NCBI RefSeq assembly: GCF_014083985.1
Contig: NZ_CP046907.1
Span: 5,342,501-5,406,500 of the forward strand
Length of the DNA stretch: 64,000 nt
Direction: 5' to 3'
Source: Streptomyces sp. SCUT-3
GTDB lineage: Bacteria; Actinomycetota; Actinomycetes; Streptomycetales; Streptomycetaceae
The stretch's first letter is position 1. Every line of letters begins with the position of its first letter. This document shows, in pieces, positions 32,380 to 34,736 of this stretch. The notes under the pieces were generated by a model. The model was not told where the DNA came from, did no database searches, and saw nothing but the letters and a program-made list of their open reading frames with translations. Both the position numbers and the translations under genes were made by a program.

Positions 32380-32395
32380 ATACCCCAAGGGGTAT
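32380..32395. promoter_or_regulatory. CstR/CsoR-type operator 1
   Basis: ATACCCC-AA-GGGGTAT is an uninterrupted 7-bp-arm palindrome between the divergent rhodanese and CstR-like genes. C-rich/G-rich inverted repeats ending in TA are the usual targets of CsoR-family repressors. Two 16-bp relatives sit upstream of the MBL-rhodanese gene. Confidence 0.8.
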
Positions 32396-32414
32396 GGAGA
32401 GGCAGGAGTGGGGC

Positions 32415-32693
32415 ATGGAGTTGGAACTCGCCGCCGAGGAGCTCAAGGCCGTGGTGAACCGGCTGAAGCGCGCCCAGGGGCAGATCAACGGTGTGATCAA
32501 CATGATCGAGGAGGGGCGTTCCTGCGACGAGGTCGTCACCCAGCTCGCGGCCGCCTCCCGGGCGCTCGACCGGGCCGGGTTCGCCATCATCGCCACCGGC
32601 CTGCAGCACTGCATGGCCGACGGCAGCGGTGAGCAGAGCGACCTGACCCAGATGCGGGCCCGCCTGGAGAAGCTCTTCCTCTCCCTGGCCTGA
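32415..32693 (+). CDS. CstR-like persulfide-sensing repressor (CsoR family)
   Basis: A 92-aa all-helical CsoR/RcnR-family protein. ATG 32415 has AGGAG upstream; the ATG at 32394 would lie inside the operator. Two cysteines (RSCDEV and LQHCM) are spaced 29 residues apart, as in both CsoR and CstR. The copper-ligand His found four residues before the second Cys in CsoR is Gly here. That pattern fits CstR, which forms Cys-Cys polysulfide bridges and releases DNA. The surrounding rhodanese and persulfide-dioxygenase genes support this. Confidence 0.85.
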
Positions 32694-32742
32694 GCGCCGC
32701 GGCCCGGCCGCAGTGCGGCCGGGCCGACAGGAGTACGACCGC

Positions 32743-32792
32743 AACGCCTCGGGCCCGGCCCCCCTCGAAGGGGGGGCCGGGCCCGAGGCGTT
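32743..32792. terminator. Strong bidirectional terminator after the CstR-like gene
   Basis: A 22-bp stem (32743-32764 with 32771-32792, loop TCGAAG) between convergent genes. A second 10-bp hairpin (32701-32725) lies just before it. Confidence 0.9.
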
Positions 32793-32823
32793 GATTCCCG
32801 CCGTCACCGGCCGGAGGGCGGGG

Positions 32824-33168
32824 TCACCGGACGACCGGCAGCCCGTCCTGGGCCCACGCCTGCATCCCGCCCTCGACGTCGACGACGTCCACGCCGCGGG
32901 CGGCCAGGAGCTGCGCGGCGGTGACGGACCTGCGGCCCGAGCGGCACACGGCCACGACGGGCCGTCCCTCGCTCCCGGCCGGGAGGGGAGCCCCCTCCGA
33001 CAGGCGGGAGAGCGGCAGCAGGACGGCGTCGGGCGCGTGCCCGTCGGCGAACTCCTTCTCCTCGCGCACGTCCAGCAGGACGGCCTCGCCGGCCCGGGCG
33101 CGCCGGTGCGCCTCGGCGGGGGAGACGCGGCCGACCGGGGTCTGGGCGGTGGTGCCGGGAACGGACAT
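32824..33168 (-). CDS. Single-domain rhodanese
   Basis: A 114-aa sulfurtransferase starting MSVPGTTAQTPVG at ATG 33168 with GAGGAACC upstream. Active-site Cys is in VVAVCRSGRRS. It probably passes sulfane sulfur between glutathione- or mycothiol-type persulfides and acceptors. It lies 137 bp downstream of the MBL-rhodanese gene on the same strand, so the two may be cotranscribed. Confidence 0.88.
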   Translation of the reverse strand: MSVPGTTAQTPVGRVSPAEAHRRARAGEAVLLDVREEKEFADGHAPDAVLLPLSRLSEGAPLPAGSEGRPVVAVCRSGRRSVTAAQLLAARGVDVVDVEGGMQAWAQDGLPVVR

Positions 33169-33305
33169 GGTGGTTCCTCCTCGGGTGGTGCTCCGCCGCT
33201 CCGGGAGGGACGCGGCGGGTGTGCTGCCGGTCACTGCCGACCGGTGGCTGCTGGTGCTGGTGGCGCTGGTGCTGCTGGTGGTCCTCGCGCGTTCGCGGAC
33301 CGGGT

Positions 33306-34667
33306 TCAGCCGGTGACGGTCAGTCCCGCGGCCTGCGCCGAGTCGAAGCCGTCGTCGATCGCGACGACCGAGCGGCCCGCGGCGTCCAGGAGGGAGGCGG
33401 CGATGGCCGCGCGCATCCCGCCGGCGCAGTGCACCCACACCGTGCCTTCGGGGACCTCGGCCATCCGGCGGTGCAGCTGGTGGATCGGGATGTGCACCGA
33501 CCCGGCCACGTGTCCCGAGGCGCGTTCGGCCGCGCGGCGCACGTCCAGGACGACCGGCTTCCCGCCGCGCTCGAGGGAGGCGGCCAGGGCGGCGAAGTCC
33601 GCGCGGGGGAAGGAGCGCGGCTCCCGGCCGTCGGGCGTCCAGTCGGCGGGGCCGCCGGTGGCCGCGGCGGCGGGGCGCTCGATGCCCACCCGCGCCAGCT
33701 CGCGCTGGGCCTCGGCGATCTGTCCGGGGGTCTCCGCCAGCAGGGTCACCGGCTTGCCCCACGGGATCAGCCAGGCCAGGTAGGTGGCGAGCTGCCCCTC
33801 GAGCTCGAAGTTGAACGCCCCGGCGACGTGGCCCTCGGAGAAGGCGACCCTGTTGCGCAGGTCGACGACCCATTCGCCGGCGTCCAGGCGGCGGGCGATC
33901 TCGTGCGCGTCGGCGGTCCGGGGCGGGGTCAGGTCGAGGGGGGCGGGGCCGGCGGCGTTGGCCGGGCCCATGTGGGTGTAGTAGGCGGGGATGTCGTCCA
34001 GGCCGGAGAGCAGGTCGGCCACGAAGTCGTCCACGCCCTTGAGGAGGGCCTCGTTGCTCTTCTTCTCCCGGCCGACGGTGCTGGACGCCCCGCCCTCGGC
34101 CTGCGAGGAGGAGCAGAAGCTGCCGAAGCCGTGGGTGGGCAGGACCTGCACCTCGTCCGGCAGTTCCGCCAGCCGGTGCGCGGAGGCGTGCTGGGCGCGC
34201 GCGAGCTGCTCGGTCAGCCGGGGCTCGACCAGGTCGGGCCGGCCGACGGTGCCGATCAGCAGCGATCCGCCGGTGAACGCGGCCACCGGCGCCCCGTCCT
34301 CCTGCAGCACGTAGGAGGTGTGGTGGGGGGTGTGGCCGGGGGTGGCGACCGCCCGCAGCGTGATGCCCGGTTCGACCTCGTGCACGTCGCCGTCGGCGAC
34401 CGGGACGCGGTCGTAGGAGACGTCGGCCGCGGCGGGCACCAGGTAGCGGGCGCCGGTGACGCGCGCCAGCTCCAGGCCGCCGGTGACGTAGTCGTTGTGG
34501 ACGTGGGTCTCCACGACCAGGGCTATGCGCACCCCGCGGCGGGCCGCGGCCGCCATCACCCGGTCGAAGTCGCGGGGCGGGTCGACGGCCACCGCCGCCG
34601 TGCGCCCGCCGGCCAGGTAGCTGTGGTTCCCCAGGCCCTCGGTGGCCAGGGTCTCGACGAAGAACAT
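33306..34667 (-). CDS. MBL-fold persulfide dioxygenase fused to two rhodanese domains
   Basis: A 453-aa CstB/BlrhN-like protein. Residues ~1-230 are a metallo-beta-lactamase domain with [23 protein letters not shown] and THGFGSFC, the mononuclear iron site of persulfide dioxygenases (ETHE1). Residues ~260-345 are a rhodanese-like domain without a catalytic Cys. Residues ~360-450 are an active rhodanese ([11 protein letters not shown]). It would oxidise low-molecular-weight persulfides to sulfite or thiosulfate. ATG 34667 follows GAGGA. Two operators lie 20-70 bp upstream. Confidence 0.9.
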
Positions 34668-34685
34668 CCGATCCTCCTCAGGAAA

Positions 34686-34701
34686 ATACCCAGGGGGGTA
34701 T
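34686..34701. promoter_or_regulatory. CstR/CsoR-type operator 2
   Basis: ATACCC-AGGG-GGGTAT, a 16-bp relative of operator 1, 19 bp before the MBL-rhodanese start. Confidence 0.7.
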
Positions 34702-34720
34702 CTGCGTCCTGGAACACCAT

Positions 34721-34736
34721 ATACCCCTGCCCGTAT
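34721..34736. promoter_or_regulatory. CstR/CsoR-type operator 3
   Basis: ATAC-CCCTGCCC-GTAT, 16 bp with weaker arms. It is centred 35 bp from operator 2 and overlaps a possible minus-strand -10 (TATATG). Confidence 0.55.

Follow-up and report, generated by a model that had tools for sequence, protein, structure and literature searches.

Dispersed 16-bp operators of a probable CstR-type persulfide-responsive repressor in Streptomyces sp. SCUT-3, and the single spacer base pair that appears to set them apart from copper operators

A 64,000-nucleotide stretch of the Streptomyces sp. SCUT-3 genome (contig NZ_CP046907.1, positions 5,342,501 to 5,406,500; hereafter the window) encodes a 92-residue protein of the CsoR/RcnR family, here called CstR, next to sulfur-enzyme genes and 16-bp palindromic sites. 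From sequence comparisons, we consider it very likely that this protein is a CstR-type (ScCsoR-like) persulfide-responsive repressor of 16-bp sites dispersed over the genome, apart from the copper regulon. In the proposed mechanism, reduced CstR would bind TAC-X8-GTA sites and repress its own gene, a divergent gene for a rhodanese fused to a transmembrane domain (rhodanese-TM), and the genes for a metallo-beta-lactamase (MBL)-rhodanese protein and a rhodanese. When persulfides or polysulfides rise, Cys37 would be persulfidated with the assistance of Cys66, and the persulfidated repressor would leave the DNA, so that sulfur-handling genes would be expressed until the level drops. CstR would also act at the promoters of genes for sulfide:quinone oxidoreductase (SQR, with DUF302), a second MBL-rhodanese protein (with a peroxiredoxin), thioredoxin, a third MBL-rhodanese protein (with TauE and a universal stress protein), and a cysteine-rich protein. 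The copper sensor CsoR would occupy 17-bp TAC-X9-GTA sites, one base pair of the spacer keeping the two regulons separate. Repression, Cys37 persulfidation and release by polysulfide are known for the S. coelicolor relative, and we infer the same for the window protein.

The repressor gene (32415..32693, + strand; PF02583, E 1.2e-23) encodes Cys37 and Cys66, counted from the ATG at 32415, at the cysteine positions of CsoR, and Gly62 at the position of the copper-ligand histidine. The protein therefore lacks the Cys-His-Cys motif, which we take to be the copper ligand set of CsoR. An earlier note on this DNA, made from the sequence alone, had described two cysteines 29 residues apart and a missing copper-ligand histidine, and both observations hold. 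The cysteine spacing was rejected as evidence for the CstR type because the histidine-bearing CsoR of the same genome has the same 29-residue spacing (C36/C65). Both cysteines are kept in 110/110 distinct CstR homologs; at the histidine position, 109 of these CstR-like sequences have Gly and one has Ser, versus His in all 12 distinct CsoR sequences. A PF02583 profile search of the genome gave two matches at E<=0.001, namely the window CstR and the CsoR, and a PDB search with the window repressor returned CsoR-type chains as the best matches. The preference of the note for a CstR-type protein over CsoR is thus borne out by this residue difference, together with the second protein, a CsoR with its own 17-bp site, the sulfur-enzyme neighbours and the S. 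coelicolor counterpart. The window system is a further member of the ScCsoR/CstR kind, which has already been described in Streptomyces.

Two perfect operators, matching ATACCCN4GGGTAT exactly, lie in the window. One (ATACCCCAAGGGGTAT, 32380..32395) is located between cstR and the divergent rhodanese-TM gene (31759..32325, - strand; PF00581 with the YgaP-like PF11127), and the other (ATACCCAGGGGGGTAT, 34686..34701) is located 18 nt before the ATG of the MBL-rhodanese gene (33306..34667, - strand), whose product we call PDO1. Both also match ATACCN6GGTAT exactly, and 100 dinucleotide shuffles of the window contained zero matches to ATACCN{6,8}GGTAT; these shuffles and the reversed-pattern controls given below rule out a chance origin of the two sites. 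A third site (ATACCCCTGCCCGTAT, 34721..34736) is degenerate, with two mismatches: ATAC...GTAT is kept, the right arm reads CCCGTAT instead of GGGGTAT, and only the outer 4 bp are palindromic. When up to two mismatches to ATACCCN4GGGTAT are allowed, the window has three matches, compared with a shuffle mean of 0.39 and with at least three in 1 of 100 shuffles. The same search of the genome gives 45 matches (9 perfect, 4 with one mismatch, 32 with two) versus 10 for the reversed control and, because two-mismatch matches are so common, the third site would not stand by its sequence alone. It is nevertheless a probable weak operator, since it lies 35 bp from a perfect site (about 0.001 expected from the density) and recalls the pair of sites 39 bp apart before pdo in S. 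coelicolor. The earlier note had proposed that three matching 16-bp palindromes define the regulon. The gene arrangement that it gave, with divergent rhodanese and CstR-like genes and an MBL-rhodanese gene, is confirmed by open reading frames (ORFs) and Pfam, and two of its palindromes stand, but the third was counted too generously and a regulon of three operators is too narrow.

Across the 6.08-Mb genome there are nine perfect 16-bp sites and no match to the reversed control. Eight of them adjoin sulfur or thiol-redox genes, the ninth lies between a hemerythrin-domain gene and a cysteine-rich ORF, and no copper gene was recognised beside any of the nine. The seven sites outside the window fall into five promoter regions. 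In locus L013, one site (position 4295) is located 160 nt before the SQR gene and also stands ahead of a DUF302 gene that diverges from it, another (9296) precedes the second MBL-rhodanese gene, which is followed by an AhpC-type peroxiredoxin gene, and another (11724) precedes a thioredoxin gene. Three sites in locus L014 (5430, 5486 and 5554) precede the third MBL-rhodanese gene, which has a TauE gene in its vicinity and faces away from a gene for a universal stress protein (5800-6702); the site at 5554 lies between the two divergent genes and could serve either. The remaining site (L015:4992) is 65 nt before the 56-residue cysteine-rich ORF and downstream of the hemerythrin-domain gene. Since the genome has no other CstR-like gene, a single repressor is proposed for all nine sites, and the window CstR most likely acts in trans at the seven distant ones.

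The copper CsoR gene lies 2.8 Mb from the window and its product is RicR-like (NCBIfam E 2.9e-43, below the curated cut-off). The genome contains three perfect 17-bp sites (ATACCCN5GGGTAT), which stand ahead of csoR and close to two HMA-domain P-type ATPase genes, whose products are read from their motifs as putative CopA proteins. Near the first of these ATPase genes are two more 17-bp sites with one mismatch each, so that one perfect and two one-mismatch sites (L112:4026, 4162 and 4192) stand upstream of this copA-type gene, presumably as a cluster of copper operators. In S. lividans, several CsoR operators of the form TACX9GTA are reported (Tan 2013, PMC3902906); consensus lengths of 16, 17 and 19 bp are given there for three operators, although the printed sequences are all TAC-X9-GTA. 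According to Lu 2020 (PMC7533328), the ScCsoR motif is ATACCn6GGTAT, that is, TAC-X8-GTA. Since the copper CsoR uses TAC-X9-GTA, one spacer base pair probably keeps both regulons apart, and in the class to which the window belongs it appears to be this base pair that splits persulfide from copper regulons. Each half of the pairing is already in print (TACX9GTA; ATACCn6GGTAT); a statement that pairs 16-bp persulfide with 17-bp copper sites was not found in the literature searched, other print not being excluded.

We compared samples of 121 genomes from the family and 198 from the phylum. In the family, the best matches to the repressor form two well-separated groups: E <=3.7e-24 in 64 genomes, counted as having a CstR-like gene, and E >=3.9e-10 in the remaining 57. 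Of the 64 genomes with the gene, 49 have perfect 16-bp sites, compared with 7 of the 57 without it (125 versus 7 sites), whereas 17-bp sites occur in 120/121 genomes, with a mean of 3.05 both with and without CstR. The reversed controls gave no match for the 16-bp pattern and three matches in three genomes for the 17-bp pattern. The context of the sites was examined at one locus per genome, in 30 genomes drawn from the 56 that have a 16-bp site and 30 drawn from the 120 that have a 17-bp site, using as sulfur and copper query sets the neighbours of the sites in the SCUT-3 genome itself. The 16-bp loci matched the sulfur set in 23 cases, the copper set in 2 and neither in 5, where ten of the 23 sulfur calls rest solely on DUF302, thioredoxin or the cysteine-rich protein. 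The 17-bp loci matched the sulfur set in no case, the copper set in 27 (21 by CsoR or CopA alone) and neither in 3; six of the 27 copper calls rest solely on an ORF neighbouring copA that belongs to no Pfam family. Named records gave 457 CstR loci; among the best 80 of these (79 titled Streptomyces, the other Actinobacteria bacterium), 51 loci carry perfect 16-bp sites, 72 in total, and none carries a 17-bp site, and in these 80 the relaxed pattern ATACC-n-GGTAT is found 80 times at n=6 and not at n=5, 7 or 8. Outside the family but within the same class, the phylum sample shows 16-bp sites in all eight CstR-bearing genomes and none in the one CstR-less genome.

Several observations weigh against this association of CstR with 16-bp sites and sulfur genes. 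The Fisher value for the family counts (5e-13) overstates it, because the genomes are not independent and their kinship was left uncorrected. A perfect site is absent from 15 of the 64 CstR-bearing family genomes and present in seven CstR-less ones; of four such CstR-less loci that were fetched, two adjoin CopA or CsoR (L061 and L065) and two adjoin neither set (L062 and L063). Of the 6 genomes beyond the class in which a close CstR is present (E <=1e-19), only 2 carry perfect 16-bp sites, and so do 42 of the 175 in which it is absent; 31 of these 42 have a CstR match of intermediate strength (1.2e-17 to 7.1e-13) that we left unclassified. The reversed 16-bp control gives 11 matches in 10 of the 198 phylum genomes, and two 17-bp sites of the phylum sample adjoin CstR-like genes (L275 and L281). 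By context, the 29 fetched 16-bp loci of the phylum divide into 14 with the sulfur set, none with the copper set and 15 with neither, and the 29 fetched 17-bp loci into 4, 17 and 8, respectively. Three phylum genomes without a close CstR (G198, G163 and G187) have 33, 15 and 12 perfect 16-bp sites. Since the phylum sample blurs the rule and the controls also match there, we claim the spacer rule for the class of the window only; beyond it, site counts and contexts do not support the rule.

Two further points on the same side concern the enzymes. The SQR gene (L013:4455-5675) has SQOR as its best solved relative (E 2e-99), and its C168 and C349, which lie in KCGGAPQ and SSCPLVT motifs, are presumably the redox cysteines. 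Counted at E <=1e-80, SQR is present in 16 copies in 15 of the 121 family genomes, and of the 10 copies whose genomes bear CstR, only 3 (that of SCUT-3 among them) have a perfect 16-bp site at a distance of up to 500 nt; the copy of G102 has 16-bp sites at about 500 nt, and none of four evaluable copies from CstR-less genomes has a site. Left out of this count were L285 (contig end) and L291 (too short), whose genomes (G103 and G027) are both without a perfect 16-bp site. The operator position suggests that CstR controls SQR in SCUT-3, but this control is not general, because it is patchy in the relatives. No paper placing SQR in an actinobacterial CstR regulon was found in the literature searched, which does not exclude other print.

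The second enzyme is PDO1, whose domain order (an MBL fold, Lactamase_B, followed by two rhodanese domains, by Pfam) is that of type III, CstB-like persulfide dioxygenases (PDOs). The iron ligands of ETHE1 are His79, His135 and Asp154 (PMC4383860). PDO1 keeps two histidines (His55 and His112), but Gly134 aligns with the Asp of the five structures whose alignments were shown, so that the His, His, Asp mono-iron set lacks its third ligand and activity of PDO1 is not assured from its sequence. The replacement is a feature of the type: Gly occupies the third-ligand position in 61/61 readable of 66 distinct PDO1-type sequences from CstR and operator loci, whereas PDO2-type sequences keep Asp in 6/6 readable of 7. 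The S. coelicolor PDO, reported to oxidise glutathione persulfide (Lu 2020, PMC7533328), very probably also has Gly here, since the Scpdo guide RNA printed in that paper reads TGGSLL. The genome has 19 matches to MBL-fold genes in all.

Because CstR and CsoR belong to the same protein family and have near-identical half-sites, the 16-bp sites might be controlled by the CsoR of SCUT-3 or by copper as such, making the cluster part of the copper response; L061 and L065, which adjoin CopA or CsoR, point the same way. We regard this as highly improbable, given the Gly at the His ligand position of the window repressor, its sulfur-enzyme neighbours, and the marking of csoR and copA-type genes by 17-bp rather than 16-bp sites, both in SCUT-3 itself and in 27/30 sampled loci. 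Another possibility is that CstR responds to some other thiol-reactive signal, such as disulfide stress, electrophiles or hypochlorite, and that induction of the sulfur genes belongs to a general thiol response. Genes for thioredoxin, an AhpC-type peroxiredoxin and a universal stress protein do stand near perfect sites, but most of the set consists of MBL-rhodanese, rhodanese and SQR genes, and the close homolog ScCsoR reacts with polysulfide; this explanation seems to us improbable.

A less remote concern, though one that we still think unlikely, is that CstR and CsoR each bind 16-bp and 17-bp sites alike and regulate each other's targets, spacer length being a by-product of ancestry rather than the source of specificity. 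Lu 2020 (PMC7533328) pooled ScCsoR fragments with sites of copper CsoR and RicR to derive a 16-bp motif and found them highly similar, the stated consensus lengths in Tan 2013 (PMC3902906) span 16, 17 and 19 bp, and the spacer rule blurs outside the class of the window. Opposed to this is the sharp split seen in SCUT-3 itself (nine 16-bp versus three 17-bp sites), among the family genomes and in the 80 best-matching named loci. Thermus paralogs, whose motifs are quite different, are also reported to show little to no cross-binding. Persulfide sensing by CstR at its own 16-bp sites is the reading that we retain below.

The cysteine-rich ORF (L015:5057-5227, 56 residues), preceded by the perfect site at L015:4992, has no Pfam or NCBIfam family. 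In the family sample it has matches in 32 of the 121 genomes, which belong to four genera only (29 of 64 with CstR and 3 of 57 without). Among 30 fetched loci, that of SCUT-3 among them, 16 carry a 16-bp site with <=1 mismatch within 220 nt upstream, at 55-107 nt from the start codon in 15 cases, and 17-bp sites are absent by the same measure; one of the 16 belongs to a CstR-less genome (L132, G116). Some of the 14 loci without such a site adjoin a DUF302 gene with a site before DUF302 (L053 and L073). Thirteen sequences share 17 invariant columns, including C2, C7, C10, C18, H21, C35 and C37. The pattern of this protein, which is 51-67 residues long, is MCRR..C..CGK..YAGCG.HV.QVLAGV....RC.C. 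An AlphaFold model (mean predicted local distance difference test score, pLDDT, 68; predicted template modelling score, pTM, 0.38) was too poor for a fold search. As a guess, the protein might be a sulfane-sulfur or metal carrier; a paper describing it was not found in the literature searched, although other print is not excluded.

The closest known system is found in S. coelicolor, the ScCsoR/ScPDO circuit (sco0618 and sco0620; Lu 2020, PMC7533328), in which ScCsoR is a sulfane-sulfur sensor that reacts with polysulfide, is persulfidated at Cys37 and needs both Cys37 and Cys66. SCUT-3 shares with it the PF02583 repressor with Cys37/Cys66, the ATACCn6GGTAT motif, the adjoining PDO and rhodanese genes, the two sites before pdo and, according to the legend of Fig. 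S7 of that paper, a binding site between csoR and the rhodanese gene. The systems differ in that TauE is among the four genes of the S. coelicolor circuit but is located near the third MBL-rhodanese gene in SCUT-3, and in the distant perfect sites of SCUT-3 at SQR, two further MBL-rhodanese genes, thioredoxin and the cysteine-rich ORF; Lu 2020 contrasts the S. coelicolor circuit with those that hold SQR. Staphylococcus aureus CstR and Bacillus licheniformis YrkD (PMC9918477) are likewise two-cysteine CsoR-family repressors over sulfur-oxidation genes, but the YrkD genes, with rhodanese, SQR and PDO, are described there as one 11-gene cluster, whereas the SCUT-3 sites are distributed among several loci. 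In S. aureus CstR, the two cysteines become joined by sulfur bridges, whereas ScCsoR yields only Cys37-SSH (as stated in PMC7533328). The S. lividans copper CsoR (PMC3902906) is of the same family and binds a TAC/GTA inverted repeat with G/C tracts, but it is a copper sensor whose 17-bp TAC-X9-GTA sites lie at csoR and copZA, unlike the TAC-X8-GTA sites of the window system.

Some details of the window cluster remain to be given. A single-domain rhodanese gene (32824..33168, - strand; Pfam) lies downstream of the MBL-rhodanese gene and converges with cstR. Between these convergent genes is a perfect inverted repeat with 23-nt arms and a 6-nt loop (32742..32793), a possible two-way terminator without a T tract. 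The mechanical ORF of cstR begins at an ATG at 32394, inside the operator at 32380-32395, and this is probably not the true start; we put the start at 32415 because AGGCAGGAG precedes it and the resulting Cys37/Cys66 numbering equals that of ScCsoR. A sigma-70 promoter scan gave no match, and we therefore claim no overlap of operator and promoter.

What the analysis adds to the described system is the dispersed operator set, its one-base-pair split from the copper sites, the cysteine-rich gene and the PDO type without Asp. The last of these is a conserved type of enzyme in which the Asp that usually binds iron is missing, and which is nevertheless reported to be active in S. coelicolor. What keeps paralogous repressors from crosstalk when their half-sites are almost the same is a testable question, to which one inserted base is a candidate answer. 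We put at roughly even chances the broader proposal that in actinomycetes one spacer base pair insulates the persulfide and copper paralogs, and that the persulfide regulon includes an undescribed cysteine-rich protein of 51-67 residues, maybe a carrier or buffer of sulfane sulfur or metal. If it is true, both regulons could be read from sequence alone in the group of bacteria to which the window belongs, and what looked like a two-promoter cluster would become a dispersed response to sulfide and persulfide that takes in SQR, three MBL-rhodanese enzymes, thioredoxin and a new small protein.

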